From the NCBI RefSeq assembly GCF_000974785.1, contig NZ_BBWV01000003.1:744001-808000 (forward strand): DNA of 64,000 bases, given 5' to 3'. This document shows positions 43,985-58,259 of the stretch, piece after piece (position 1 is the first letter of the stretch; every line of letters begins with the position of its first letter). A model generated the notes under the pieces. The model was not told the origin of the DNA. It saw only the letters and a list, made by a program, of their open reading frames with translations, and did not search any database. A program made the position numbers and the translations under genes. Origin of the DNA: Flavihumibacter petaseus NBRC 106054. GTDB lineage: Bacteria > Bacteroidota > Bacteroidia > Chitinophagales > Chitinophagaceae.

Positions 43985-44566
43985 ATGCAGGAAGACATAT
44001 TGATCCAGATCAGCAACAAGATAAAAGAGACGAGACGTAATAAAAATATTACCGTGCAACAGCTGGCCACCCAGGCCAATGTGAGCAAAGGGCTGATTTC
44101 ACAGATCGAAAATAACCGTACCGTTCCCTCGCTTCCTGTTCTCATGAGCATCGTGCAATCGCTGGGACTGGACCTTACGGAGTTTTTCAATGGCATCCAG
44201 GCGAATGGCGGGACAGAGAAAATCGTTATCAAAAGATCCGCCGACTACAAACACTTCAAGAAAGAAACGGCCAAAGGATTCGACTACCAGCGGATCTTTA
44301 CCCGGAATATGGCCGGCGGAGCCGTGGATTTTGTACTGTTGAAACTGAAAAAAGGCGCTAACCGCAGCCAGATGGTTAAGACAGATGCCTATGAATACAA
44401 ATACATCATCCAGGGCACGGTAGAATACCTGATTGAAGAAAAAGTGTACACCCTGCAGGAAGGAGATTCCCTTTTTTTTGACGGCAGGCTTGGGCACAAA
44501 CCGGCCAATATCGGTAAGACCGACGCGCTGATCCTGGTAGTATACTTCTTCCAGACAAATTCCTGA
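43985..44566 (+). CDS. XRE-family regulator with C-terminal cupin domain
   Basis: This 193-residue protein has an N-terminal XRE helix-turn-helix (ITVQQLATQANVSKGLISQI then ENNRTVPSLPVL) and a C-terminal cupin domain (about 110-190) with GANRSQMVKTDAYEYKYI, GTVEYLIEEKVYTLQEGDSL and FFDGRLGHKPANIGKTDAL. Cupin-XRE proteins typically control uptake or catabolism of one substrate, with the cupin as sensor. It is directly upstream of and co-oriented with the SusCD-phn genes, with a nested palindrome between, so it is the obvious candidate regulator for them. Confidence 0.93.
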   Translation: MQEDILIQISNKIKETRRNKNITVQQLATQANVSKGLISQIENNRTVPSLPVLMSIVQSLGLDLTEFFNGIQANGGTEKIVIKRSADYKHFKKETAKGFDYQRIFTRNMAGGAVDFVLLKLKKGANRSQMVKTDAYEYKYIIQGTVEYLIEEKVYTLQEGDSLFFDGRLGHKPANIGKTDALILVVYFFQTNS

Positions 44567-44652
44567 TCACCATTCCGATCATAATTCCTGTTGTTTTTCC
44601 AGACATCTCCGGCTTCCCCGGGCGGTAGTGGGTACGCATACGTTTGCGTCAA

Positions 44653-44707
44653 TTGTTTAGTAATAGTAAATTATGTTTACTACACAATGTATATTTATAC
44701 TAAACAA
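44653..44707 (+). promoter_or_regulatory. Nested inverted repeats upstream of susC in the phosphonate locus
   Basis: TTGTTTAGTA (44653-44662) and TACTAAACAA (44698-44707) are perfect 10-bp inverted arms. Inside lies a second perfect inverted repeat, TAGTAAA-TTATG-TTTACTA (44664-44682). A TATATTTA at 44690-44697 resembles the -7 consensus (last base differs) and would be covered by a protein bound at the arms. It sits 23 bp before the SusC ATG. Confidence 0.65.
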
Positions 44708-44729
44708 ACCATTATTCAAACCACTGCTT

Positions 44730-47700
44730 ATGTCACCCATTTTAGCTTCACTCCGCCGCAGCAGCCTGATCTTCTCCCTGCTGCTGTGCTGGTATGTTTC
44801 GCTGGCACAGTCCGAATTAAAAGGACGCATTACCAATGAAGCCAACCAGCCAATAGCTGGTGTAACCGTTCAGGTGAAGGGAACCAATACCCGCACCGCC
44901 ACTGACCAGAACGGCAGGTTCAGCGTTCCGGCTGCCTCCGGCGCCGTGCTGATTTTCAGCCACGTCGGTTTTGTTTCCCGCGAACAACCCGCCGGTAACG
45001 AATCCGACATCGCCATCCAGCTTAAACCCAACAACGACGCCATGGGCGAAGTAGTAGTGACTGCCCTGGGTATCAAAAAGGAAAAGAAGGCACTGGGTTA
45101 TGCCGTTCAGGAAGTAAAAGGAGAAGAACTGGTGAAAGCCAGGGAACCCAACGTAATTAGTTCCCTCACGGGTAAGGTGGCTGGCCTGCGCATCGCCAGC
45201 TCCTCCAACCTGTTTGGTGATCCCGGTATTTCCCTGCGTGGTAAAGGCACCATTATCGTAGTAGATGGTGTGCGCATCAATTCCGATTCCTGGAACCTGA
45301 GCGCCGACGATATCGAAAGCTTCTCCGTGCTGAAAGGACCAACCGCTGCCGCCCTCTATGGTTCCGACGGACAAAACGGCGCCATCCAGATCACCACTAA
45401 AAGAGGATCCAAAAACAAGAGGGGCTATTCCGTAGAATTCAACTCGAGCACACAATTACAAACAGGGTTCAACGCCGTTCCCGGGTTGCAGGGCGAATAC
45501 GGTCCCGGTTCCAATTTTCAATATGAATATGGGGATGGCCGTGGCGCCGGTATCAATGATGCCGACTATGACGTCTGGGGCCCCCGTTTCGAAGGACAAC
45601 TCATCAAACAATGGAACAGCGAAGTGGATCCCGCTACAGGAGACCTGGTTCCCCTGCCATGGACTGCCAAAGGCAAGAACAACCTTGACAATTTCCTGCA
45701 GAACGGTATCCTTTCCAGCAACAACATTGCCATTTCTGCCAACAACGACCGGGGCGATATCCGCTTTTCCATCACCCAGATGTACCAGCGCGGCCAGGTT
45801 CCCAATACCAAACTCAATACCACCAACGTGGCCATGTCCGGCGGACTCAACATCAACAAGAAGTTGCGCCTCGAAACCAATATCAACTACAACAAACAGT
45901 ATACGCCCAACTACCCCGTATTTGCCTACCAGCCCAGCAGTCCTGTCTATGCCATGATGATCTGGGGTGCCGCCAACTACGATGTGCGTGACCTCCGCGA
46001 TTACTGGATGCCGGGTAAAGAAGGCACCCAGCAAAAGAACGTAGAGAATTATCAATATTCCAATCCCTGGTTTATCGCCTACGAACAATTGCGTGGTTAT
46101 TATAAAGATGACCTGTATGGGTATGCGAAACTGAAATACAACATCACGGAAGGCCTCGATGTGCACCTGCGCACCAACGTCTCTACCAACTACCTGAACC
46201 GCCAGAACCGTTACCCGATCTCCACCTCGCAGTACAATGGTGACGGCGGCTATTTCCAGCGCGGCGGATACAACGAGTCCTTCAGCTATTTCTGGGAAAA
46301 CAATACCGATGTGCTTGCGACCTATAGCAAAGATATCTCCCGGTCCTTTTCCCTGAAAGCCTCTGCCGGCGCCAACCTGCTGACGCGCCGGACAAATTAC
46401 CAGTACAGCCATACCAACAACGGTTTGCTCGTTCCGCAACTATGGACCGTACAGAACAGTGTTGACCCGCCTTCTACAGAAACCTTCAAAACGTCTTACC
46501 AGCGCAGGAGCGTTTATGGATATGCCGACCTGGACTATCGCAAGATGATCTTCCTGAGCCTTACCGGCAGGATGGACCAGGCTACCACACTGCCCAAGGC
46601 GAACAATTCCTATTTCTATCCTTCCGTGTCCCTCAGCGGCGTGATCTCTGAAATGGTCAAACTGCCGGAAGTGATTTCCTTTGCCAAAGTGCGCGCCTCC
46701 TATGCCAAAGTGGGCAACGACGGCCTGGTTGCAGGCAGTGAAAACTATTATACCCTGTATCCAACCTATTCCACCGGTGTACGCTGGAACGGTAACCCGT
46801 CGCTCTATTACAGCGGCACACTCTACGATCCCAATATCAGCCCGGAGTTCAGCAAGGCCCTGGAATTCGGCGCAGATATCCGCTTCTTCCGCAACCGCCT
46901 CGGATTTGATTTCACCTACTTCCGCAACATTGAAGGTCCATCGATTTTCTACCTGCCGCTTTCTCAAAGTACCGGCGTAACCACCCTGCAGCGCAACGGC
47001 CTTACCTACAAGCGCAAAGGTGTTGAACTGGTGGTAACGGCATCGCCTATACGCAAAGCAAATTTCAGCTGGGACGTCCTGTTGAACTGGTCTACCCAGC
47101 AACGTTACCTCGATGAAGTATACGATACGCTGCAAACTTACCAGCGGATCAAAGTGGGAGAGCGCACAGACAAACTCTACCTCACCGATTTCCAGAAATC
47201 TGCCAACGGTCAGATCATCTATAACCCCGGAAACGGAAGGCCCCTTTTCAACAACTATGTTACCATGCAGGGTTATGGCAACGAAAACTGGATGGCAGGA
47301 TTACAGAACACCTTCCGCTATAAGAACCTCAGCTTCGGCTTCCTGATTGATGGCCGGTATGGTGGTAAACTCGTCAACTACCTCAGCCAGAAACAATGGC
47401 AGGCAGGTGCGCATCCTTTGTCCGCCAACGAATACCGCCTGGCAGACTGGAACAACCGCGACGTAGCAGGTTACAAAGGCACTTTTGTTGCCGATGGCGT
47501 AAATATTGTGAGCGGCACCCTGGAAGTGGACGGTGACGGCAATATGGTGAAGGATACCCGCGAGTATAAAGACAATGAAACGCCGATCAAATGGGAGTCT
47601 TTTGCCAAAGGTTACTATGGCAGCAGCATCGCCAACCTGGTGGACAAATCCTACATCAAACTCCGCGAAGTGACCATCACGTATAACGCGTCACAGCACC

Positions 47701-47882
47701 TGTTGTCCAAACAGCGGTTTTTCAATGCAGCGTCTGTTTCCCTGGTGGGCAGAAACCTCTGGTATCATGCGAAAGACAAAAATGCCCGCAACATCGACCT
47801 CGACCAGTGGACCAGCACCAGTACTGAACTGGAAACTCCATCCATCAAAAGCTTTGGCCTGAACCTGAACCTTATCTTCTAA
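44730..47882 (+). CDS. SusC/RagA-family TonB-linked outer membrane protein of the phosphonate locus
   Basis: The start at 44730 gives a signal peptide (MSPILASLRRSSLIFSLLLC to SLAQ). The 1050-residue protein has a carboxypeptidase-like regulatory domain (GRITNEANQPIAGVTVQVKG), the TonB box region (MGEVVVTALGIKKEKKALGY), a plug domain (KVAGLRIASSSN, VDGVRINSDSW, GPTAAALYGSDGQNGAIQIT) and a long beta-barrel ending FGLNLNLIF, a typical terminal aromatic signal. It forms with SusD a pedal-bin transporter for large or complex nutrients. Its placement directly before phosphonate genes suggests a phosphonate-bearing substrate. Confidence 0.95.
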   Translation: MSPILASLRRSSLIFSLLLCWYVSLAQSELKGRITNEANQPIAGVTVQVKGTNTRTATDQNGRFSVPAASGAVLIFSHVGFVSREQPAGNESDIAIQLKPNNDAMGEVVVTALGIKKEKKALGYAVQEVKGEELVKAREPNVISSLTGKVAGLRIASSSNLFGDPGISLRGKGTIIVVDGVRINSDSWNLSADDIESFSVLKGPTAAALYGSDGQNGAIQITTKRGSKNKRGYSVEFNSSTQLQTGFNAVPGLQGEYGPGSNFQYEYGDGRGAGINDADYDVWGPRFEGQLIKQWNSEVDPATGDLVPLPWTAKGKNNLDNFLQNGILSSNNIAISANNDRGDIRFSITQMYQRGQVPNTKLNTTNVAMSGGLNINKKLRLETNINYNKQYTPNYPVFAYQPSSPVYAMMIWGAANYDVRDLRDYWMPGKEGTQQKNVENYQYSNPWFIAYEQLRGYYKDDLYGYAKLKYNITEGLDVHLRTNVSTNYLNRQNRYPISTSQYNGDGGYFQRGGYNESFSYFWENNTDVLATYSKDISRSFSLKASAGANLLTRRTNYQYSHTNNGLLVPQLWTVQNSVDPPSTETFKTSYQRRSVYGYADLDYRKMIFLSLTGRMDQATTLPKANNSYFYPSVSLSGVISEMVKLPEVISFAKVRASYAKVGNDGLVAGSENYYTLYPTYSTGVRWNGNPSLYYSGTLYDPNISPEFSKALEFGADIRFFRNRLGFDFTYFRNIEGPSIFYLPLSQSTGVTTLQRNGLTYKRKGVELVVTASPIRKANFSWDVLLNWSTQQRYLDEVYDTLQTYQRIKVGERTDKLYLTDFQKSANGQIIYNPGNGRPLFNNYVTMQGYGNENWMAGLQNTFRYKNLSFGFLIDGRYGGKLVNYLSQKQWQAGAHPLSANEYRLADWNNRDVAGYKGTFVADGVNIVSGTLEVDGDGNMVKDTREYKDNETPIKWESFAKGYYGSSIANLVDKSYIKLREVTITYNASQHLLSKQRFFNAASVSLVGRNLWYHAKDKNARNIDLDQWTSTSTELETPSIKSFGLNLNLIF

Positions 47883-47900
47883 TCAGCAAAAATTGTAATC

Positions 47901-49409
47901 ATGAACCGGAGTTATAAATTCCTGGCTTTATCTATCACGGCCGCCGTTCTCATCACCGGCTGTAAAAAAATTGACGAGATTCAGAAGAATCCCAATGCCT
48001 CTGACCAGGCATCTCCCAAGCTGATCGTTACCGGCATCCAGTACGATATGTACGACAATTCCTGGAGCGATAATTCCTATTCCCAGCGCATGGCGCAAAC
48101 CCAGGTGCTGAACTTCGACTACTATGGCAACCAGTCGTACACCTGGGGCAGTGGATCATTTTACTACAATACCCTCCGCAATGTGGGCCGCCTGGAAACC
48201 GAAGCAGACAAGCAGGGCGTCAATACCGTAACACGTGGCTACAAGGCGTTTGCCAAATTTGCCAAAGCCATGCTGTACAGCAAGATGACAGAGCAGATGG
48301 GTGACATCCCCCTGAGCGAAGCCATGCAGGGAGCTGACGGTGTGCATTATCCCAAATACGACAGCCAGAAATCAGTATACCTGCAGTGCCTGCAGTGGCT
48401 CACGGAAGCCAATACAGAGCTGGCAGCCATCCTTACCGAAAATCCCAATGCTGCCATCGAAGGGGATATTTATTATGGCGGCAGTCTCGCCAAATGGCAG
48501 CAGGCGGTGAATTCACTTTCCCTGAGGCTCCTGATCAGCCTGAGTAAAAAAGAGGCCGATGGTGATTTGAACCTGAAAGAGCGTTTCAACGCGATTGTAT
48601 CCAACCCTGCAGCATACCCGGTTATACTGACCAATAGTAGCAACCTGCAGATGACCTACAATTCCACTGACAAAAGCAACAACTTTCCTGTTTTCCCGGA
48701 TGATTCAAAATTTTATGTAAACAGGAATATACTGGGTGCTACCTGGGTGGATCTGCTTACCGGTTTGAAGGATCCCCGGATTTTTATCATTGCTTCCCCG
48801 GCTGAAAATATTCCGGAAGATCCTGCTGATCCGTTTGCGCGGTACAAAGGCGCGAATTCAGGGGCCATCCAGAGTGAAATTCAGACCGCTACCAATGCCG
48901 GCCTGTATGCTTACCTCAACCGCAGCTACTGGCTGAAGGATGCCAGCGGTATACCCTGTATCCAGCTGGGTGCCAGCGAAACAGCCTTTAACATTGCTGA
49001 AGGTATCAACCGCGGCTGGACTACCGGTGATGCAGGTGAATACTACAAAATGGGTATTACGCAGTCGATGCTGTTTTATGGAGTGGAAGCCAGTGATATC
49101 GCTGACTTTCTTGCCCAGCCCGAAGTTACCTACGCGGGTAACGATGCCGATGGCCTGGAGCAGATCCTGACGCAGAAGTATGTGGCTTATTTCGGTAACT
49201 CCGGCTGGCAGGCTTATTACAACCAGCGGAGAACCGGTGTGCCGGCTTTTGTGATCGGACCAGCCAACGAAAATGGGGGTATGATCCCGGTGCGTTTCAG
49301 CTATCCTTCTGCTGAATACACGAACAATAAAGAAAGTGTTACCGATGCCGTTCAGGAACAGTTCGGTGGCTCAGATACCCGGAATGATGTAATGTGGTTA
49401 ATTAAATAA
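47901..49409 (+). CDS. SusD/RagB-family nutrient-binding outer membrane lipoprotein
   Basis: This 502-residue lipoprotein has lipobox ITGC (LSITAAVLITGCKKIDE). It has the TPR-rich SusD fold of the SusD-like_2 branch, with RGYKAFAKFAKAMLYSKMTE, QMGDIPLSEAMQG and, near the end, QILTQKYVAYFGNSGWQAYY. It caps the SusC barrel and binds ligand at the cell surface. It follows SusC after 18 bp and precedes phnA after 8 bp, so the outer-membrane system and cytoplasmic phosphonate enzymes share a transcript. Confidence 0.94.
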   Translation: MNRSYKFLALSITAAVLITGCKKIDEIQKNPNASDQASPKLIVTGIQYDMYDNSWSDNSYSQRMAQTQVLNFDYYGNQSYTWGSGSFYYNTLRNVGRLETEADKQGVNTVTRGYKAFAKFAKAMLYSKMTEQMGDIPLSEAMQGADGVHYPKYDSQKSVYLQCLQWLTEANTELAAILTENPNAAIEGDIYYGGSLAKWQQAVNSLSLRLLISLSKKEADGDLNLKERFNAIVSNPAAYPVILTNSSNLQMTYNSTDKSNNFPVFPDDSKFYVNRNILGATWVDLLTGLKDPRIFIIASPAENIPEDPADPFARYKGANSGAIQSEIQTATNAGLYAYLNRSYWLKDASGIPCIQLGASETAFNIAEGINRGWTTGDAGEYYKMGITQSMLFYGVEASDIADFLAQPEVTYAGNDADGLEQILTQKYVAYFGNSGWQAYYNQRRTGVPAFVIGPANENGGMIPVRFSYPSAEYTNNKESVTDAVQEQFGGSDTRNDVMWLIK

Positions 49410-49417
49410 AAGAGACA

Positions 49418-50665
49418 ATGGTCAATCAGATTTCGACGAAGACGTTTTCAGTGAATGGAAAAACCTATGCGCCGCCCGCTGCGCCGGTGGTAGTGATTTG
49501 TATTGATGGTTCTGCCGATGAATACCTCGATACCACGATGGCTTTCGACAGGCTGCCGAACCTCAAAAAGATGACACAACAGGGGTACCGGGGCATGGTC
49601 AGAGGGGCGCTGCCTTCTTTTACCAATGTGAACAATTCCTCCATTGTAACCGGCGTAACGCCTGCGGTACACGGCATCAGCGGCAACTTTTTTTACGACG
49701 CGGCAAAAGACGCCGAAGTGATGATGAATAGTGCGGATTACCTGCGTGCCGATACCATCCTGGCAGCTGCTTCAGCGGCCGGCCGGAAGGTGGCCGTGGT
49801 GACCGCCAAGGAAAAACTGCGGGATATCCTTTCGCACAAAATGGAAGGCATAGCCATCTCTGCAGAAAAAGCCAACCAGGCAAAACAGGAAACACATGGT
49901 ATTGATGGGGTGGAAGCGATCGTGGGTCATCCCACGCCCGCCATTTACAGCGCCGATGCGAGCCTGTTCGTGTTGCGGGCGGGAGTAGCCTTCATTGAAA
50001 ACGGACTCGCCGATTTCCTTTACCTGTCACTCACCGATTATATGCAGCATACCTATGCGCCGGAAGCTGAAGCTTCCCTCGCATTTTATGAGGCAATGGA
50101 TGCAGAGATCGGAAAACTGCTGGCCCTGGGGGCCGTAGTGGGTGCTACGGCCGACCACGGCATGAATGCCAAGGTGAAAACTGATGGCAGTCCCAACGTG
50201 CTCTTCGTGGAAGACATGCTGGAAGCGCAATTCGGTGCCGGTGGTTTCCGCGTGATCTGCCCCATTACTGATCCCTACGTGAAACACCACGGTGCCCTGG
50301 GTTCCTATGTGGTGGTACACCTGGAAGATCAGGCAAAGACCGACGAAGTAAGAAAATGGCTTTCCATACAGCCAGGCATAACCGAAGTATATGACCGCGC
50401 TACGGCCGTACATGTGCTGGAACAACCGGAAGACCGGATAGGTGACCTGGTGGTATTATCGGGAAGAGATGTGGTGGTAGGACGGAAACCCAAATACCAT
50501 GACCTCTCCGCACTCGACGGAACACTGCGTTCCCACGGTGGCCGCTACGAAGAAATGGTACCCATGGTGCTTTCCCATCCCTTGAACAGCGCCTATACCA
50601 TGAAAGCCGCCGGCGACCCCAGGAACTTCGACATTTTTGACTTTACCATCAATGGTACAAACTGA
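49418..50665 (+). CDS. phnA: Phosphonoacetate hydrolase (PhnA type)
   Basis: This 415-residue enzyme of the alkaline phosphatase superfamily lacks a signal peptide, so it is cytoplasmic. It splits the C-P bond of phosphonoacetate into acetate and phosphate. Both zinc sites and the nucleophile can be read: D30 (VVICIDGSADEY), T69 (ALPSFTNVNNSS), D207 and H211 (SLTDYMQHTYAP), D246-H247 (GATADHGMN) and H373 (LRSHGGRYEEM). Lysines of VVTAKEKLRDIL (K131/K133) fit the substrate-carboxylate site known from PhnA. The downstream genes give the two preceding steps of the phnWAY pathway. Confidence 0.93.
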   Translation: MVNQISTKTFSVNGKTYAPPAAPVVVICIDGSADEYLDTTMAFDRLPNLKKMTQQGYRGMVRGALPSFTNVNNSSIVTGVTPAVHGISGNFFYDAAKDAEVMMNSADYLRADTILAAASAAGRKVAVVTAKEKLRDILSHKMEGIAISAEKANQAKQETHGIDGVEAIVGHPTPAIYSADASLFVLRAGVAFIENGLADFLYLSLTDYMQHTYAPEAEASLAFYEAMDAEIGKLLALGAVVGATADHGMNAKVKTDGSPNVLFVEDMLEAQFGAGGFRVICPITDPYVKHHGALGSYVVVHLEDQAKTDEVRKWLSIQPGITEVYDRATAVHVLEQPEDRIGDLVVLSGRDVVVGRKPKYHDLSALDGTLRSHGGRYEEMVPMVLSHPLNSAYTMKAAGDPRNFDIFDFTINGTN

Positions 50666-50673
50666 AACTGCTC

Positions 50674-52146
50674 ATGTCCGATAGCATAACCTCAACAATT
50701 GCCGGAAGCCATGTGAAGAATGGCGTTCCTGCCTGGCACTTGACTTCCTACATTGCCGGGCAGCCCATCACTTCACAACAACTTCTGAAGGTACACAGCC
50801 CTTACGACAACAGGCTGGTAGGTACCGTAACCCTTGCCGGAAAAGCCGATGCCACGGCTGCCATTGAGAAGGCCCTGCAGGGCGGAACTGCGCTTTCCCG
50901 CTATGAACGATTCAGCATTCTCGACAAAACCCGTCAGCTGCTGGTGGAAAGGAAGGAAGCCATTGCACAGATCATCAGTGCCGAATCGGGACTCGCCATT
51001 CGCGAGGCCCGCTATGAAACCGGCAGGGCACACGATGTACTGATGTTTGCTGCCATGGAATGCCTGAAAGATGACGGCCAGATATTTTCCTGTGATATAT
51101 CCCCGACAGGCAAGGCCCGCAAGATCTTCACCCAACGGGAACCCCTTTCCCTGGCGGTGTGCATCACGCCGTTCAACCATCCGTTGAACCAGGTGGCGCA
51201 CAAGATCGCGCCGGCCATTGCCGCGGGGACCCCGGTGATCCTGAAGCCTTCTGAAAAAACACCGCTTACCGCCATTAAACTGGTGGAGCTGCTGTATGAA
51301 GCCGGATTGCCGAAACACATGCTCAGCGTACTGCTGGGACCAACGGCAGAAATTGCGGAGCCACTGGTAAAAGATCCCCGCGTAGATATCGTGTCATTCA
51401 CGGGCAGTGTTGCGGTGGGCAAACATATTGCCAGCACTGCAGGCTACAAGAAAGTGATCCTGGAACTCGGCGGAAACGATCCACTGATCGTGATGGAAGA
51501 TGCCGACCTGGATCTTGCTGTAAACCTTGCCGCAGAAGGCGCCTACCGGAACAGCGGACAACGCTGCACCGCTGTAAAGCGTATACTGGTACATGAAAGT
51601 ATTGCCGATACCTTCATTCAGAAGCTGGTTGCGAAAACAAAGGAATATACCTGCGGTGATCCTGCCAATCCTGAAACCAGGGTGGGTACCGTGATCGATG
51701 AAGCTGCTGCCATCTACCTCGAATCCGTGGTAGAACAGGCAGTGGCACAGGGCGCCCGTGTATTGATTGGCGGCAAACGCCACGGCGCGTTGCTCGAACC
51801 CACTGTGATTGTTAACGTACCGCGCAATGCCGTAATGGTAGTACGCGAATCGTTCGGGCCACTGGCACCTGTGCTCACCTTCACCGATATTGATGATGCG
51901 ATCCGCCTGAGCAATTCAACCGACTATGGTTTGTCCAGCGGCATCGTCACCAACAATATGGCCTATGCGCTGCGGTTTATCCGCGAGCTGAAAGTGGGTA
52001 CGGTGAACATCAACGAAGTACCGGGGTACCGCATTGAAAGTTCTCCCTTTGGTGGCATCAAAGACTCGGGTCTCGGCATCAAAGAGGGTGTGATCGAAGC
52101 GATCAAATGTTTCACCTACGTCAAAACTTTTTCCTTACCCTGGTGA
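50674..52146 (+). CDS. phnY: Phosphonoacetaldehyde dehydrogenase (PhnY type)
   Basis: This 490-residue aldehyde dehydrogenase has the catalytic elements N168 (ITPFNHPLNQVAHK), K191 (LKPSEKTPLTA), E264 (LELGGNDPLIV) and nucleophile C298 (NSGQRCTAVKR). LELGGNDPLIVMEDADLD and GQRCTAVKRI resemble PhnY. Its place 8 bp after phnA and in one operon with phnW supports oxidation of phosphonoacetaldehyde to phosphonoacetate with NAD+. Family membership alone would leave other aldehydes possible; the context makes the assignment strong. Confidence 0.9.
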   Translation: MSDSITSTIAGSHVKNGVPAWHLTSYIAGQPITSQQLLKVHSPYDNRLVGTVTLAGKADATAAIEKALQGGTALSRYERFSILDKTRQLLVERKEAIAQIISAESGLAIREARYETGRAHDVLMFAAMECLKDDGQIFSCDISPTGKARKIFTQREPLSLAVCITPFNHPLNQVAHKIAPAIAAGTPVILKPSEKTPLTAIKLVELLYEAGLPKHMLSVLLGPTAEIAEPLVKDPRVDIVSFTGSVAVGKHIASTAGYKKVILELGGNDPLIVMEDADLDLAVNLAAEGAYRNSGQRCTAVKRILVHESIADTFIQKLVAKTKEYTCGDPANPETRVGTVIDEAAAIYLESVVEQAVAQGARVLIGGKRHGALLEPTVIVNVPRNAVMVVRESFGPLAPVLTFTDIDDAIRLSNSTDYGLSSGIVTNNMAYALRFIRELKVGTVNINEVPGYRIESSPFGGIKDSGLGIKEGVIEAIKCFTYVKTFSLPW

Positions 52147-52179
52147 CACCCTATTCAATCAATTTCCAATCAGATTAAC

Positions 52180-53274
52180 ATGAGAGTATTCATAGCAGGA
52201 ATGTTGCTATGCCTGTCGACGATGGGTTTGGCGCAACAACAGAAATCAAAAAACATCATCCTGATTTCCCTCGATGGATATCGCTGGCAGGAGGTATTTC
52301 AGGGTGCAGATTCAACATTGCTTTTTCCACCCAAATACCGCAGGCAGGATTCGACTGAACTGATGACCAAATTCTGGGCGCCCGATGCACAGCAGCGCCG
52401 GGAAAAGCTCATGCCCTTTTTCTGGAAGACCATTGCCCGGCAGGGGCAGTTGTACGGCAACCGCGACGCGGGCAACCTGGTGAATGTGAGAAACAAATAT
52501 TGGTTCTCCTATCCAGGCCGCAGTGAAACCCTTTGTGGCTATTACGATTCCGCCGTGAATTCCAACAGTTACCCCAACAACCCGAACGAGAATGTACTCG
52601 AGTTTGTGAACAAACAAAAAGGGTTTGAAGGAAAGGTGGTGACGTTTGCTTCCTGGGATGCCGTGGGACGGATCGTGAACCGCGACCGCAACGGCATGAT
52701 GACGATCCTTCCGGGAGAACAGGTGAAAGGCAACAACCTGACCGAGGCACAAAAGCTGGCCAACGAACTGCAGTTTTACACACCGGAGTTTTTCGGCAAA
52801 TCGGTCCGCGACGATGCGCACAGTTTTGCCATGACCAAATCCTATATGCAGGCCAATCATCCCCGCATGGTGTACATCGACTTTGCCGACCCCGATGACT
52901 ATGCTCATGCCGGTCAGTACGATTCATACCTCGATGCCGGTCACTACCTCGATGCCATGATCGGCAGCCTTTGGAACATGATCCAGTCCGACCCTTTTTA
53001 CAAAGACCAGACGACCATCATGATCTATCCGGACCATGGCAGGGGCGTGGGACCAAAATGGACGGGTCACGGTTCTTCGATTCCCAGGGCCAATGAAACC
53101 TGGATGGCTGTGATCGGCCCTGGCATAGCACCACTCGGTGAAGTAAAAACCGCCGGACAGCTTTACCAGGACCAGTTTGCACAGACTGCTGCGCAGTTGC
53201 TTGGGTTCCGGTTTACTGCCAATCATCCGGTAGGCGAACCCGTGAATACAGTACTTCAACCCGGTAAGAAATGA
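52180..53274 (+). CDS. Exported alkaline-phosphatase-superfamily hydrolase of the phosphonate locus
   Basis: This 364-residue protein has a signal peptide (MRVFIAGMLLCLSTMGLAQ), so it works in the periplasm or outside. Metal ligands can be seen in ILISLDGYRWQEVF (D32), YIDFADPDDYAHAGQYD, MIYPDHGRGVG and WTGHGSSIPRANE. The nucleophile position reads Ser110 in YWFSYPGRSETLCG, while NPP/PhnA relatives carry Thr. It may release phosphate or an aminophosphonate from an ester or a decorated lipid/glycan before uptake. Substrate is inferred from context only. It overlaps the FAD gene by 4 bp. Confidence 0.85.
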   Translation: MRVFIAGMLLCLSTMGLAQQQKSKNIILISLDGYRWQEVFQGADSTLLFPPKYRRQDSTELMTKFWAPDAQQRREKLMPFFWKTIARQGQLYGNRDAGNLVNVRNKYWFSYPGRSETLCGYYDSAVNSNSYPNNPNENVLEFVNKQKGFEGKVVTFASWDAVGRIVNRDRNGMMTILPGEQVKGNNLTEAQKLANELQFYTPEFFGKSVRDDAHSFAMTKSYMQANHPRMVYIDFADPDDYAHAGQYDSYLDAGHYLDAMIGSLWNMIQSDPFYKDQTTIMIYPDHGRGVGPKWTGHGSSIPRANETWMAVIGPGIAPLGEVKTAGQLYQDQFAQTAAQLLGFRFTANHPVGEPVNTVLQPGKK

Positions 53275-54491
53275 AATCAGTTGACCTGGTAATTGTGGGT
53301 GGGGGCATATTTGGATGTGCCATAGCCTATTATTATACGCGGAACTATCCCGCAAAATCGGTGATGGTTCTGGAGCGGAAAGAGCTGTGCAATGCCGCCA
53401 CCAGCCGGGCCGCCGCATTAATGACGGTAGTGCGGTCCAAACAATCCTATATCCCGCTGTCTTTGGAAACAAGAGCGGTGATCCCGGAGCTGGAAAAGCA
53501 ACTCGGCGAATCCCTGGATATGAAGACAGTGGGCATGATGCATGTTGCGGCTAGTGAAGCCAGGGAAAAAGACCTGCAGGAACTGATGGCTATTGCCGGA
53601 ACCTATGAACAGCCAGCTGAATGGTTGCGCGCGGACGAAGCCATGCAGAAAGCGCCCTGGCTCAAGGCTGATGAAGCGCGGGCGATCGCTTTCCTTCCCC
53701 AGGAAGCCTATTGTGATCCCTACCTGCTGGGAACTTTCTTTGCCCGTTGCGCAAAGCAACAGGGTGCGGATATCCGCCAGGGTGTTGGGGTGCAATCGAT
53801 GCTGATGGAAGGCAATACGGTGGTCGGGTTACAGACCGACGGCGGAAAACTGTATGCCGGTAAAGTGGTGATCGCTGCAGGTGCATGGTCGCCGTTGCTG
53901 GCCCGCCAGGCAGGGATCGGGTTGCCCATGGCGCCGGTGCGCAGCCAGTACTGGATTACGGAAAGATCATCGCTTTTTCCGGAAGCATCACCAATCGTGT
54001 TGCTTCCGGATGCACAGGCATACGCGCGACCAGAAGGTGGCGCCCTGTTGTTTGGAGTAAGGGAGAACAGGTCGCTTAGCCTGTCCCCGGATCTGATCCC
54101 GGAAGAGATTACTGAATTTTCGTTTAGTCCTGACCGTGGGATGACAGACCTGAGTGAAGTGATCGAAAGACTGGGCCGCTTTTTTCCGGGCATTTATGAT
54201 ATCGGACTCAAGTATTATATGGCCGGATTTTCGGCGTATACCCCTGACGGCAACCTGTCGATGGGTGTTGCTCCCGGCGTCAACAACCTGTTGCTGGCAA
54301 CGGGCTGTGTAGGTGCAGGGATTGCAATTGCCGGCGGCGTTGGCCGGGCCTTTGCGGAACTGGCAGCGGGCCGCTCCAATCCCTACAACTTCAATGATTT
54401 TGATATCAGCAGGTTCGGGAAGATTGATCCGTTCAGCCAGGAATGGCTGGACAAATGTGCAATGGCCCGCTCCAAAAAAGTGAGTGGCTGA
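53271..54491 (+). CDS. DAO-type FAD-dependent oxidoreductase, candidate (N-methyl-)aminophosphonate oxidase
   Basis: This 406-residue protein starts with a Rossmann FAD site (VDLVIVGGGIFGCAIAYYY, then LERKELCNAATSRAA). It has the second FAD segment GKVVIAAGAWSPLLARQAG and the C-terminal LLLATGCVGAGIAIAGGVGR, as in glycine oxidase and sarcosine oxidase relatives (DAO family). FAD amine oxidases acting on 2-aminoethylphosphonate and its N-methyl form are known from phosphonate gene clusters. Here it could give phosphonoacetaldehyde alongside PhnW. It overlaps both neighbours by 4-8 bp. Substrate is inferred from location. Confidence 0.85.
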   Translation: MKSVDLVIVGGGIFGCAIAYYYTRNYPAKSVMVLERKELCNAATSRAAALMTVVRSKQSYIPLSLETRAVIPELEKQLGESLDMKTVGMMHVAASEAREKDLQELMAIAGTYEQPAEWLRADEAMQKAPWLKADEARAIAFLPQEAYCDPYLLGTFFARCAKQQGADIRQGVGVQSMLMEGNTVVGLQTDGGKLYAGKVVIAAGAWSPLLARQAGIGLPMAPVRSQYWITERSSLFPEASPIVLLPDAQAYARPEGGALLFGVRENRSLSLSPDLIPEEITEFSFSPDRGMTDLSEVIERLGRFFPGIYDIGLKYYMAGFSAYTPDGNLSMGVAPGVNNLLLATGCVGAGIAIAGGVGRAFAELAAGRSNPYNFNDFDISRFGKIDPFSQEWLDKCAMARSKKVSG

Positions 54492-55836
54492 TCCTATTCA
54501 AAAACCAAGAAACGGAGGCGCTGTGTTATACCTGTCAAAACAATTCCAACGATCGGAAATCTTTACCGCGATCTGGGCCATGGTGGCTGCATTCGGTACT
54601 TATTTCTGCATGTATGCCTTCCGCAAACCCTTTAACAGCGGCGTTTACGAAGGGCTGTTTGCCTTTGGCCTGGAATATAAAGCGGTATTGATTATCGCGC
54701 AGGTATTGGGTTATATGGTCTCCAAATTCCTGGGCATAAAGGTGATCTCTGAATTGCAACCCCAAAACCGCAGGAAGCTGATCATTGCCCTGATCCTGGT
54801 GGCCGAGGTCAGCCTCGTGTTGTTCGGGCTGGTGCCGCATCCGTACAATTTTGTATTCCTGTTCTTCAACGGCCTGCCACTGGGCATGGTATGGGGCATC
54901 ATCTTCAGTTACCTGGAAGGACGGCGGTTTACCGAAATGCTGGGGATGGGCCTCAGCATCAGCCTGATCGTTTCTTCAGGGATCCTGAAAACGGTGTACT
55001 TCAACCTGCACGACTGGCTGCCGGCGGTATCGGAATTCTGGATGCCGGCCCTGGTCGGCCTGGCCTTCCTGCCCGCCTTCTTTCTATTCGTCTGGATGTT
55101 GTCAGTCATTCCCGAACCCACGGAAACAGACAAGCTGCTCCGCTCGGAGCGGCTACCCATGACGGTGTCGGACAAACGAAAAGTAATGCAGGAGATCGGC
55201 CTGGGCGTTACGGGATTGGTGCTCATCTATTCCCTGCTGACGACGATGCGCGATTTCCGGGATAATTTCTCCGTGGAGATCTGGCGCGAGATCTATCCCA
55301 CCCGGACCAACGCGGTTTTCTCCACCACGGAAATGATTGCCGGACTCGTGGTGCTGGTGGGCGTGGGATGCCTGTCGATGATCCGCAACAATATCCGGGG
55401 CTTCTGGAGCACGTTGTGGCTGATTGCTGCGGGACTGCTGATGTGTGGCGGCAGCACGCTGCTGTTCCAGTTCAAATTGTTACCGCCGTTTGGCTGGATG
55501 ATGTTGTCGGGTATGGGATTGTTCCTTGCCTATGTACCGATACAGGTGGCTGTTTTTGAAAGGATCATCGCCCTTTTTCCGATCCGCGCCAATGCCGGCT
55601 ACTTTGTTTACCTCTGCGATGCCACCGGCTACCTCGGCAGTGTGGGATTGATCCTGTACAAAGAATTTTTCATGCAGCAAACGCAATGGGCCACGGTGCT
55701 GATGCATTTCAGTTATATCATGGCAGCTGCTTCCCTGCTGCTGCTGGTTTTTATAGCGGTGTACTTCAACCGCAAACTCGGTGTGAACGGACCCGTTACC
55801 AAACAAATCGAAAAACTTAACCTCTTAAATCCATAA
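54484..55836 (+). CDS. DUF5690-family MFS transporter
   Basis: This protein of 437-450 residues has about 12 hydrophobic helices and an opening typical of organophosphate-type MFS carriers: MVAAFGTYFCMYAFRKPFNS, VLGYMVSKFLGIKVISE, FFNGLPLGMVWGIIFSYLEG. The likely start is GTG: either 54484, overlapping the FAD gene by 8 bp, or 54523, which has a GGAGG Shine-Dalgarno 5 bp before it. It is the only inner-membrane transporter in the locus and so the likely importer of the aminophosphonate after SusCD passage. Confidence 0.86.
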   Translation: MADPIQKPRNGGAVLYLSKQFQRSEIFTAIWAMVAAFGTYFCMYAFRKPFNSGVYEGLFAFGLEYKAVLIIAQVLGYMVSKFLGIKVISELQPQNRRKLIIALILVAEVSLVLFGLVPHPYNFVFLFFNGLPLGMVWGIIFSYLEGRRFTEMLGMGLSISLIVSSGILKTVYFNLHDWLPAVSEFWMPALVGLAFLPAFFLFVWMLSVIPEPTETDKLLRSERLPMTVSDKRKVMQEIGLGVTGLVLIYSLLTTMRDFRDNFSVEIWREIYPTRTNAVFSTTEMIAGLVVLVGVGCLSMIRNNIRGFWSTLWLIAAGLLMCGGSTLLFQFKLLPPFGWMMLSGMGLFLAYVPIQVAVFERIIALFPIRANAGYFVYLCDATGYLGSVGLILYKEFFMQQTQWATVLMHFSYIMAAASLLLLVFIAVYFNRKLGVNGPVTKQIEKLNLLNP

Positions 55837-55837
55837 G

Positions 55838-56950
55838 ATGTCTACCACGAAACTGTTGTTTACTCCCGGACCACTATCTACTTCATTAACGGTAAAGGAA
55901 GCCATGCTGCAGGACATGGGATCGCGTGATGATGCTTTTGTGCAGGCGGTGAAAGCGATCAGGAGCGAGCTGCTTGCTTTGGCGCATGTATCAAAAGAAG
56001 ACGGTTATGAGACCGTAATTATGCAGGGATCGGGAACCTTTGGTGTGGAGTCAGTGATCAGTTCTGTGGTGGGTAAAAATGACCAGCTGCTCATCCTGGC
56101 CAATGGCGCATACGGTGAGCGGATTGCCACGATGGCGGCTATGCACCAGTTGAATCATATCGTTGTCCGGTGTCCGGAAAACGAAATCGTTACAGCAGCA
56201 GCGGTGGAAGCGACCTTACAGCAACACCCGGCGATTACCCATGTTGCCTGTATTCACAGTGAAACCACCACCGGGCTGTTCAATCCCATTGGTGACATCG
56301 GCGCTGTTTGCGCGCGCCTGGGCAAAGTATTCATCGTGGATGCGATGAGCAGTTTTGGCGGTACGGAAATGGACATGAAGGCCATGCATATCGACTTCCT
56401 GGTATCTTCTTCCAACAAATGCATCGAGGGCGTGCCGGGATTTGCCTTTGCACTCTGCAAACGCAGCGAACTCGAAAAAGCGAAGGGCCAGGCGCGGAGC
56501 CTGAGCCTCGACCTGTATGCGCAATGGGCAGGACTCGAGGCGAGCGGACAATTCCGCTTTACGCCGCCTACGCTGAGCCTGATGGCTTTCCGCCAGGCGA
56601 TGCAGGAATTGCAGCAGGAGGGAGGCATAACGGCCCGGGAAAAGCGGTACCGCAACAACAAGGCGGTGCTGGATGCAGAGATGGCGAAGCTGGGTTTCCG
56701 CCAGTACCTTGATCCTGCCATCCAGGGGCATATCATTACCTCGTTTTTATACCCGGCAGACCCGGCCTTTCATTTCGGGCAGTTCTACGAGAAGCTGAAC
56801 CAGCGGGGATTTGTCATCTATCCCGGCAAGCTCGGCAAAACCGATGCGTTCCGGATCGGCAATATCGGCCAGATCTATCCCGATGATGTCCGTGGCCTGG
56901 TAGCCGCCATTGGGGAAGTGCTGGCAGAAATGGGGGTGAAAGTGGCTTAA
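55838..56950 (+). CDS. phnW: 2-aminoethylphosphonate:pyruvate transaminase PhnW
   Basis: This 370-residue fold-type I PLP enzyme starts LLFTPGPLSTSLTVKEAML and has QGSGTFGVESVISSVVG, HSETTTGLFNPIGDIG, the PLP-pyridine Asp (FIVDAMSSFGG, D168) and PLP-binding Lys194 in SSSNKCIEGVPGF. Near the end KTDAFRIGNIGQI carries the substrate Arg. PhnW moves the amino group of 2-aminoethylphosphonate to pyruvate, forming phosphonoacetaldehyde and alanine. PhnY and PhnA upstream finish the pathway; the locus has no PhnX phosphonatase. It begins 1 bp after the MFS stop. Confidence 0.95.
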   Translation: MSTTKLLFTPGPLSTSLTVKEAMLQDMGSRDDAFVQAVKAIRSELLALAHVSKEDGYETVIMQGSGTFGVESVISSVVGKNDQLLILANGAYGERIATMAAMHQLNHIVVRCPENEIVTAAAVEATLQQHPAITHVACIHSETTTGLFNPIGDIGAVCARLGKVFIVDAMSSFGGTEMDMKAMHIDFLVSSSNKCIEGVPGFAFALCKRSELEKAKGQARSLSLDLYAQWAGLEASGQFRFTPPTLSLMAFRQAMQELQQEGGITAREKRYRNNKAVLDAEMAKLGFRQYLDPAIQGHIITSFLYPADPAFHFGQFYEKLNQRGFVIYPGKLGKTDAFRIGNIGQIYPDDVRGLVAAIGEVLAEMGVKVA

Positions 56951-57257
56951 AGCCGTTTGCCGGTAGGTTAAGGGCCCGGAAAGGCATCACCCGAACCATA
57001 GCCGTTTTATAGCCGAATTACACCAATCCTGCACCGATTCTACAGCGGAAGGGTGGGTTTGCTAAGGGACGGCTGTAGTTTTGCTGCAGTTCGGCTGTAG
57101 GTCTACACTGTTTTCAGGCATATCACGGTAGTGTTTCAATGGGTGCGGGAAATCCGTAATGGCCTTGAAGGTGCGCGCTTATGAACCAGACCGCCAACAA
57201 TCGTATCAAAGAACTGGACACAAAATTAGCAACCCGGCTGGCCTGGAAAAGTCATAT

Positions 57258-57333
57258 GGGACGGGATTGCACTTTTCCAGGGACGAGGTTGCACTTCTGG
57301 CGGGACGGGGTTGCACTTTTCCAGGGACGAGAT
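57258..57333. repeat. 22-bp tandem repeat, about 3.4 copies
   Basis: Units start at 57258, 57280, 57302 and 57324 (partial). Each opens GGGACG and the first three continue to TTGCACTT. Units 1 and 3 end TTCCA and differ at a single base; unit 2 ends CTGGC. The alternation of near-identical units 1 and 3 suggests a 44-bp duplication. Confidence 0.8.
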
Positions 57334-57597: not shown

Positions 57598-57846
57598 ATG
57601 GACACCAAACTTACCCTTTCAATTGACAAGGATATAATTGAAGAGGCAAAAAAATATGCCAGGAAGAGAAATACATCCTTATCGAATCTTATCGAAAACT
57701 ATCTTGTTAGTGTGACCCAAAAAAGCAAGGTCGAGAAAAATGAAATCACTCCCCTGGTTAAGAGCTTATCAGGAGTATTAAAGCTTGATGATCGTTCAGA
57801 CAGTAAAAAAATGTATGGCGATTTTTTAGCTGATAAGTATCGATAA
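57598..57846 (+). CDS. DUF6364-like ribbon-helix-helix antitoxin
   Basis: This 82-residue protein begins MDTKLTLSIDKDIIEEAKKY, an N-terminal beta strand followed by two helices (ARKRNTSLSNLIENYLVSV), which is the ribbon-helix-helix DNA-binding fold of DUF6364-type antitoxins. The C-terminal part (LSGVLKLDDRSDSKKMYGDF) probably wraps the toxin. The toxin gene starts 2 bp later. Base composition is AT-richer than in flanking genes, suggesting transfer. Confidence 0.88.
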   Translation: MDTKLTLSIDKDIIEEAKKYARKRNTSLSNLIENYLVSVTQKSKVEKNEITPLVKSLSGVLKLDDRSDSKKMYGDFLADKYR

Positions 57847-57848
57847 GA

Positions 57849-58259
57849 ATGGATAAGGTATTTATTGATACTGATATCGCGCTTGATTTACTAGCGCAAA
57901 GAGAACCACATTATTTACCGGCAGCGGCACTATTTAGTCTTGCAGATAAAGGAGAAGTAACAATTTACATTTCCTCTCTTTCCTTCAGCAATCTGAATTA
58001 TTTGTTGTCACGGCAGTATAATTCAACAGAAAGCAGAAGGATTCTGAATAGTTTTAAAGTGCTGGTAAAAGTACTTGCAGTGGATGATAAAATCATTGGA
58101 TTGGCGTTAAGTTCAAAGTTTAAAGATTTCGAGGACGGCATTCAATATTATACTGCAACAGAGAATGGTATAAATAATCTTCTGACCAGAAACATCAAGG
58201 ATTATAAGGAAGCAAAAATTGCTGTACTTACTGCTGAATCCTATCTGAAAAGAACCTAA
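57849..58259 (+). CDS. PIN-domain toxin (VapC-like)
   Basis: This 136-residue protein starts MDKVFIDTDIALDLLAQREP, with the first catalytic Asp (D7) and D9 of PIN ribonucleases. KFKDFEDGIQYYTATENG carries the next acidic site, and GINNLLTRNIKDYKEAKIAV matches the usual GxDxxxTRNxxDF segment, with Asn in place of the common Asp. PIN toxins cleave RNA, often tRNA, when not bound by the antitoxin. The upstream antitoxin and shared operator complete a type II module. Activity may be changed by the Asn. Confidence 0.88.
   Translation: MDKVFIDTDIALDLLAQREPHYLPAAALFSLADKGEVTIYISSLSFSNLNYLLSRQYNSTESRRILNSFKVLVKVLAVDDKIIGLALSSKFKDFEDGIQYYTATENGINNLLTRNIKDYKEAKIAVLTAESYLKRT

Follow-up and report, generated by a model that had tools for sequence, protein, structure and literature searches.

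Phosphonates form a large pool of organic phosphorus, and it is unsettled how Bacteroidota take them up. The question is raised in concrete form by a locus of Flavihumibacter petaseus NBRC 106054 in which a SusC/SusD outer-membrane pair precedes the genes of a phosphonate-degrading pathway. The locus consists of nine genes on the forward strand at 43985-56950 of a 64-kb stretch of contig NZ_BBWV01000003.1 (C20:744001-808000, referred to below as the window) in a genome of 5.69 Mb and 22 contigs. The locus is likely to be an operon for phosphonate use that follows the plan of a polysaccharide utilisation locus (PUL), in which aminophosphonate esters imported by SusCD, an exported enzyme, a DUF5690 carrier and the enzymes PhnW, PhnY and PhnA work as a chain. 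It represents one form of a larger modular system, and importers of the same kind recur in relatives beside other enzymes of phosphonate degradation, which points to a dedicated phosphonate import route in this group.

A phosphonate pathway behind an outer-membrane importer

PhnW, PhnY and PhnA are all present and each exceeds its curated cut-off, which completes the gene set of the PhnWAY pathway; motifs known as active-site motifs of these enzymes are found on inspection of their sequences. Going by the known chemistry of the three families, PhnW would convert 2-aminoethylphosphonate (AEP) to phosphonoacetaldehyde, PhnY would turn this into phosphonoacetate and PhnA would split the latter into phosphate and acetate. 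A genome-wide search for PhnJ gave no match, so no carbon-phosphorus (C-P) lyase is seen in the genome and a C-P lyase route was rejected. The SusC-family TonB-dependent transporter and the SusD-family lipoprotein are adjacent and thus make up a SusCD import system.

From this gene content we infer the substrate and the order of the steps. The SusC/SusD pair would take a bulky or esterified aminophosphonate through the outer membrane in a TonB-energised manner, with an AEP-carrying headgroup, a phosphonoglycan fragment or a phosphonolipid product as candidate cargo. The exported enzyme, a member of the phosphatase superfamily, would cleave the ester in the periplasm, and the aminophosphonate so freed would be moved across the inner membrane by DUF5690, a major facilitator superfamily (MFS) protein resembling the organophosphate antiporters (OPA), to be degraded by PhnW, PhnY and PhnA. 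A flavin adenine dinucleotide (FAD) enzyme may in addition feed N-alkylated aminophosphonates such as N-methyl-AEP into the same route, as PbfC and PbfD do.

Recurrence of SusCD at the phnA loci of relatives

PhnA above its cut-off is rare, being found in 8 of the 395 genomes of a phylum sample and in 32 of the 394 genomes of a family sample. A SusC at least 34% identical to that of the window, on the same strand and at most 10 kb from phnA, accompanies the gene in 13 of these 32 family genomes, or in 14 if one locus at a contig edge that shows SusD only is added. From the SusC signature counts of each genome and the genome sizes 3.45 would be expected, and 13 or more are reached in 8 per million simulations; if strand is ignored the expectation is 6.45 and the frequency 0.005, and a slightly narrower distance in the same chance estimate gives 2.86, or 5.4 with strand ignored. 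Conservation of the pair with phn genes in relatives, on which the original prediction of aminophosphonate import depended, is thus found. That prediction is partly supported, with further backing from a mostly phosphonate-linked SusC clade and from a shared element that precedes susC in some loci and phnA in others (both described below), and has to be qualified in that phnA clusters carry SusCD only as an accessory.

SusCD stands upstream of phnA-phnY on one strand in Chitinophaga hostae, C. niastensis, Terrimonas pollutisoli, Paraflavitalea, Limnovirga soli, Ferruginibacter paludis and Pedobacter nyackensis, and the remaining genes of these loci differ in order and strand. In Terrimonas PhnW and DUF5690 are encoded on the opposite strand, in Ferruginibacter 5 kb containing a phosphoesterase and a second receptor separate SusD from PhnA, and in the Pedobacter nyackensis locus PhnW was not seen. 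The window PhnA is 87% identical to that of Chitinophaga hostae, 84% to those of two congeners (L152, L154) and 79-80% to those of named Flavihumibacter.

The company that SusC keeps was counted in a non-redundant set of 42 phnA loci, taken at a PhnA identity of 70% or more and with 4 kb on either side. An exported-type phosphoesterase is found in 14 of the 18 loci with SusC versus 4 of the 24 without (p 1e-4), DUF5690 in 17 versus 7 (p 2e-5), PhnW in 17 versus 9 (p 3e-4) and a DAO/HpnW enzyme in 11 versus 4 (p 0.004), all of these p values being inflated by kinship among the loci, and the presence of the regulator shows no association with SusC (p 1).

Some phnA loci have features of their own. 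A 1133-amino-acid (aa) open reading frame (ORF) stands before the regulator in loci of the type seen in L023. In a phnA-phnY locus of Pedobacter that lacks SusCD, phnA is preceded by a zinc-type alcohol dehydrogenase gene and a PF07690 MFS gene (L018:7618-9992), possibly another route into phosphonoacetaldehyde, and ORFs of similar size occupy this place in L020 and L028.

A SusC clade linked to phosphonate genes

The window SusC was searched in 388 genomes of the family, with two candidates scored per genome and 150 listed matches used. These matches led to loci without phnA, in which the typical order is cupin-XRE regulator, SusC, SusD, exported phosphatase, Phn-HD oxygenase (TIGR03276), PhnX-like protein (TIGR03351), DUF5690 and HpnW FAD enzyme (TIGR03364). 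Of the proteins scanned, two of four Phn-HD are above the cut-off and two just under it, both PhnX-like proteins are under it and all four HpnW enzymes are above. At least 46 of the 150 SusC matches, a lower bound drawn from the 150 listed matches of each family, lie no more than 12 kb from a listed DUF5690 gene, 45 of them on the same strand; less than 1% would be expected by estimate, because there are one or two DUF5690 genes per ~5 Mb. In a hand count of the best 42 SusC matches, phosphonate-catabolism or DUF5690 genes accompany 26, phosphoesterases without such genes accompany 10, and the other 6 have neither or are unread.

In a FastTree tree of 96 SusCs, which carries a warning of long branches meeting, 59 sequences fall into one clade (support 100) that excludes all 36 background sequences, namely 30 SusCs of the window genome (the best of 57 matches) and 6 of low identity from other loci; the background sequence L206_16971 branches beside the clade. 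Of the 50 loci in a subclade, phosphonate-catabolism or DUF5690 genes are present in 45, phosphoesterases alone in 2 and neither kind in 3. Its sister group of nine comprises seven loci with a PF01663-type phosphodiesterase by SusCD (four assigned by Pfam, the rest by likeness), one with other phosphoesterases and one with neither. The type of cassette, phnA or Phn-HD/HpnW, needs 8 changes among the linked sequences whether or not a misplaced one is included; this one, L146_16087, is a second SusC near a phnA and one of the 20 phnA-labelled sequences, and is placed among the background. As the sequences were picked for their similarity to the SusC of the window or for their linkage (L222-L241 for nearness to DUF5690, L202-L221 for its absence nearby), the tree shows clustering and exchange, and the linked share is not a frequency.

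The same genome contains a second phosphonate locus (L202, G000:C22:1773001-1793000) in which a SusC 45% identical to that of the window is accompanied by SusD and Phn-HD, and in which the opposite strand encodes a PhnX-like protein, a DAO/HpnW-type enzyme (29%) and DUF5690. In L211, L212, L214, L216, L218, L220 and L221 a sister SusCD is found with a PF01663-type phosphodiesterase of ~411-421 aa and no phosphonate gene was recognised, which makes the sister group a possible phosphodiester SusCD. In several linked loci SusD is followed by a protein of 900-940 aa with PF04185 phosphoesterase and beta-propeller matches (L017:4906-7731 and homologues), and such loci sometimes carry an extra TonB-dependent receptor.

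Regulator and shared upstream element

Homologues of the cupin-XRE regulator, mostly 56-71% identical, occur at 22 of the 32 phnA loci of the family sample. K-mer counts against first-order simulations detected a GTTTAGTAT element: TTTAGTA/TACTAAA is present upstream of 23 of 47 linked SusCs (5.4 expected). Among background SusCs 1 of 34 upstream regions contains it (1.9 expected), and among unlinked ones none of 11 (0.8 expected). Its extended form, GTTTAGTATNNNTNNAC, precedes susC in the window, in Chitinophaga, Terrimonas and Paraflavitalea and in several Phn-HD loci, and it precedes phnA in five Flavihumibacter-type loci without SusCD. With duplicates included, 22 of 47 regulator-bearing loci and 3 of the 65 others contain it, and it is absent from all 30 background loci; the 112 loci scanned hold repeat fetches, the motif-bearing duplicates being L012/L140, L024/L144, L027/L149 and L047/L142.

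The extended form occurs once in the whole genome, in this operon. An estimated ~0.7 chance sites are expected per genome, so its position and conservation matter and its uniqueness does not. L010 and L012 contain two opposed full sites 36 bp apart, and the window has a partial site (44655) and a full site (44689) 34 bp apart. An exact inverted repeat as one common operator was rejected, no single repeat recurring among the loci. The sequence evidence suggests that the shared element is probably the operator of the cupin-XRE protein, which would control susC and the genes downstream via GTTTA-N7-TAAAC-like sites before susC, a control whose direction we infer.

Periplasmic and inner-membrane steps

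The exported enzyme narrowly clears the Metalloenzyme and Phosphodiest Pfam models (26.9 and 25.7 bits), and its residues D32, S110, D239/H243, D285/H286 and H297 fit the pattern of the superfamily; we take S110 to be the likely nucleophile and the others to be metal ligands. Its AlphaFold2 (AF2) model, with a predicted local distance difference test (pLDDT) of 77.9, matches sulfatases, YejM, LtaS/LtaP and phosphonate monoester hydrolase, and the enzyme is predicted to be a periplasmic phospho/phosphono-diesterase. The FAD enzyme reaches no curated equivalog cut-off (TIGR03329 35.8 bits, cut-off 632.8) and is possibly a PbfC-like N-methyl-aminophosphonate oxidase. The FAD enzymes PbfC and PbfD oxidise N-methyl-AEP, and homologues of PbfC are frequent in the FCB group (PMC10590968, available portion).

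The AlphaFold model of DUF5690 (pLDDT 86.5) has the MFS fold and is nearest to an OPA member: in a Foldseek comparison with the PDB human G6PT (SLC37A4) takes ranks 1-7, with E from 1.1e-8 and a template modelling (TM) score of 0.62-0.64, and GlpT follows at rank 39. The DUF5690 profile gave 0 matches against PDB chain sequences at E up to 1. In a low-probability hhalign alignment to E. coli GlpT (5.6), the invariant R47-K48 falls on GlpT R45-K46, and R256/R259 come to lie a few residues off GlpT R269; R45 and R269 are presumably the phosphate-binding arginines of GlpT. DUF5690 is found in 177 of the 394 genomes sampled from the family and in 39 of 375 from the phylum, and a phosphonate-type enzyme lies within ~1.5 kb at 42 of 58 distinct DUF5690 loci (36 of 58 at 40% identity or more).

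Organisation of the locus

From susC onward the intergenic distances are 18, 8, 8, 33, -4, -8 and 1 bp. The gene list given in the original prediction, on a single strand with gaps of 33 bp or less or overlaps after susC, agrees with the coordinates of Table 1; its MFS carrier does have an MFS fold and is better named an OPA-like DUF5690 protein. The G+C content of the locus is 52.4%, versus 48.7% in the remainder of the window.

Table 1. Features of the phosphonate locus, with positions counted in the 64-kb window
Feature	Position	Strand	Evidence
Cupin-XRE transcriptional regulator	43985..44566	+	Pfam HTH_19 50.4 bits, Cupin_2 42.6 bits
Operator-like region	44655..44705		GTTTAGTA at 44655 (+); inverted repeat TAGTAAA-TTATG-TTTACTA 44664-44682; GTTTAGTATAAATATAC 44689-44705 (-)
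SusC-type TonB-dependent transporter	44730..47882	+	TIGR04056 489.4 bits (cut-off 368.25); clade membership
SusD-like_2 lipoprotein	47901..49409	+	PF12771 250.7 bits; LITGC lipobox by eye; best solved relative 3mx3, SusD homolog
PhnA, phosphonoacetate hydrolase	49418..50665	+	TIGR02335 510.9 bits (cut-off 407.55); 1ei6 phosphonoacetate hydrolase E 2e-116
PhnY, phosphonoacetaldehyde dehydrogenase	50674..52146	+	TIGR03250 683.5 bits (cut-off 635.65); best PDB match 4i3t E 7.6e-150
Exported alkaline-phosphatase-superfamily hydrolase, predicted periplasmic phospho/phosphono-diesterase	52180..53274	+	Signal-peptide-like start, metal-ligand pattern, AF2 model
FAD-dependent amine oxidoreductase (DAO family)	53271..54491	+	PF01266 199.8 bits; best PDB match dimethylglycine dehydrogenase 5l46 E 1.2e-28
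DUF5690 carrier (MFS fold, G6PT/GlpT-like), predicted inner-membrane phosphonate importer	54484..55836	+	PF18943 514 bits; AF2 pLDDT 86.5
PhnW, 2-aminoethylphosphonate:pyruvate aminotransferase	55838..56950	+	TIGR02326 493.5 bits (cut-off 400.8); 1m32 E 1.2e-115

The ORF caller places the start of susC at 44673, which is less likely than 44730 (MSPILASLRRSSLIFSLLLCWYVSLAQ, signal-peptide-like by eye); a start at 44673 would cross the operator-like region. The regulator ends 163 bp before 44730 and may therefore be a transcription unit of its own. Reading by eye recognises a lipobox on SusD and a signal peptide on the exported enzyme, and a signal peptide is not evident in the same by-eye reading at the N-termini of PhnA, PhnY, the FAD enzyme and PhnW. 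Scans for sigma-70 promoters and terminators found sites no commoner than in shuffles (13 versus 12.6 and 17 versus 15.7), and a TAnnTTTG-like box at 44639 is one isolated match. Directly after phnW, a small ORF from 57598 and a PIN-like ORF (57849-58259) resemble by eye a VapBC-like pair (57598-58259), and the intergenic stretch 57250-57330 contains, again by eye, a short direct repeat of GGACGGGATTGCACTTTTCCAGGGACGAGGTTGCACTT-like units.

Alternative explanations

Several observations weigh against the reading of the locus as an import chain for aminophosphonate esters. AEP is small enough to pass porins, so a TonB-dependent channel implies another or a larger substrate. By the criterion used above, 18 of the 32 family phnA genomes have neither SusC nor SusD, 5 of them having short upstream sequence (the upstream part is under 8 kb at six phnA loci, including one of the 14 with SusC or SusD), so PhnWAY does not require SusCD; five Flavihumibacter-type loci show, among the genes sought, only the regulator, PhnA, PhnY, DUF5690 and PhnW, which makes SusCD an accessory module. 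The PhnA tree gives at least 7 changes of SusC state, yet 3 supported independent pairs, too few for significance. Of the 47 regulator-bearing loci 25 have no operator motif, and the Fisher value is inflated by duplicates. The fold of the exported enzyme fits sulfatases as well as phosphoesterases and does not settle the substrate, and the presumed nucleophile S110 falls within a low-confidence stretch of the model (97-113). For DUF5690, other MFS families come close behind G6PT in the structure matches and hhalign gives no confident alignment to GlpT; moreover, one PF12974 phosphonate-binding-type ABC (ATP-binding cassette) protein is encoded elsewhere in the genome (G000:C20:294709-295401), so DUF5690 need not be the sole importer.

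SusCD and the exported enzyme might alternatively serve a general scavenging of organophosphates (phosphodiesters), with the phn genes co-housed for phosphorus acquisition and no phosphonate passing through SusCD. The phosphodiesterases that accompany seven of the nine sister SusCs, where no phosphonate gene was recognised, would be in keeping with this, as would the six low-phosphate-induced PusCD pairs of Flavobacterium that adjoin phosphomonoesterases and diesterases (PMC8115612, text in part). We nevertheless regard it as unlikely, since 45 of the 50 loci of the subclade have phosphonate-catabolism or DUF5690 genes, in two cassette types, beside phosphoesterases, and since the element before susC also precedes phnA where SusCD is missing. 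Far less credible still is that SusCD adjoins the phn genes by chance or through a transient insertion and carries an ordinary glycan or peptide. SusC genes are indeed common, as the 57 matches in the window genome attest, and over half of the phnA clusters in the family are without SusCD, but the excess at phnA loci (13 of 32 versus 3.45 expected), the single SusC clade, the gaps of 8-18 bp and the lack of any carbohydrate-active enzyme (CAZyme) family among the Pfam matches of the nine genes at E up to 0.001 all speak against such an accident; a plain glycan PUL was rejected on the last of these grounds. More plausible than either, though held only tentatively, is the proposal that the operon serves mainly to use some phosphonate other than AEP, with the FAD enzyme acting on N-methyl-AEP or a similar secondary amine, which is compatible with import of aminophosphonate esters through SusCD. 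It draws on the PbfC/PbfD chemistry described above, on the frequency of PbfC homologues in the FCB group (PMC10590968, available portion) and on dimethylglycine dehydrogenase as the best solved relative of the FAD enzyme, and is held back by the score of this enzyme below the curated equivalog and by C. hostae and C. niastensis, in whose SusCD loci no such FAD gene was recognised.

Wider implications

The recurrence of the importer invites a broader proposal, for and against which the evidence is about evenly balanced: that Bacteroidota, chiefly Chitinophagaceae, possess a modular phosphonate import chassis composed of the SusCD clade, an exported phosphono-ester hydrolase, DUF5690 as an OPA-type importer and the cupin-XRE regulator with its operator, and that unrelated C-P cassettes (PhnWAY; PhnZ-like/PhnX-like/HpnW) have been repeatedly exchanged on it. 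If this is true, phosphonolipids or phosphonoglycans, rather than free AEP, would be the native food. A SusCD clade tied to phosphonates would widen the cargo of SusCD systems from glycans and peptides to C-P compounds, and the phosphonate link would give DUF5690, present in 177 of the 394 family genomes, a likely function. The SusC clade and the operator would serve as a sequence marker of phosphonate use in soil and rhizosphere metagenomes.

Comparison with known systems

The OPA antiporters G6PT (SLC37A4), GlpT and UhpT are like DUF5690 in the fold of its model and unlike it in that the family has no PDB sequence match. With SusCD PULs the locus shares a regulator, SusC, SusD, an exported hydrolase, an inner-membrane carrier and catabolic enzymes on one strand, whereas it has no CAZyme family match and its catabolic chemistry is the cleavage of a C-P bond. 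PULs are regulated by hybrid two-component systems (HTCS), SusR or pairs of an extracytoplasmic function (ECF) sigma factor and an anti-sigma factor, in place of which a cupin-XRE regulator is found here. With the hydrolytic AEP pathway it shares all three enzymes over their curated cut-offs. PhnWAY is usually described beside ABC or other inner-membrane importers, and the AEP importers known are inner-membrane systems of other bacteria, whereas in this locus an outer-membrane SusCD and DUF5690 would take their place.

AEP transporters are described in PMC8316502 and phnWAY specialists are mentioned in PMC9381506 (both in the text available), and phnY-phnA in Bacteroidetes is noted by PMC12366243, the available main text of which contains neither "outer membrane" nor "TonB". 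SusCD beside phosphonate enzymes has been reported before: one sentence in the available text of PMC8115612 notes such pairs in Flavobacterium, and among the papers listed this one and its follow-up PMC8812569 were the relevant ones. For the SusC clade, the operator and the role of DUF5690 no prior report was found: among the papers listed from the literature searched, with bioRxiv and most subscription journals outside its scope, there was no description of the first two and no paper naming DUF5690.

The nearest known system is accordingly PusCD of Flavobacterium, which shares with this locus the combination of SusCD with organophosphorus-degrading enzymes and for which an import of organic phosphorus has been proposed (PMC8115612, in part, and its follow-up PMC8812569, where PusCD is restated in the available text). 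The PusCD pairs are induced by low phosphate, are accompanied in some clusters by ECF sigma or FecR-like genes and contain PF07980/PF14322 in PusD1 and PusD2 (PMC8115612, same text), whereas the locus described here, from a member of the Chitinophagaceae, combines a cupin-XRE regulator and a SusD-like_2 lipoprotein (PF12771) with DUF5690 and a phnWAY cassette.

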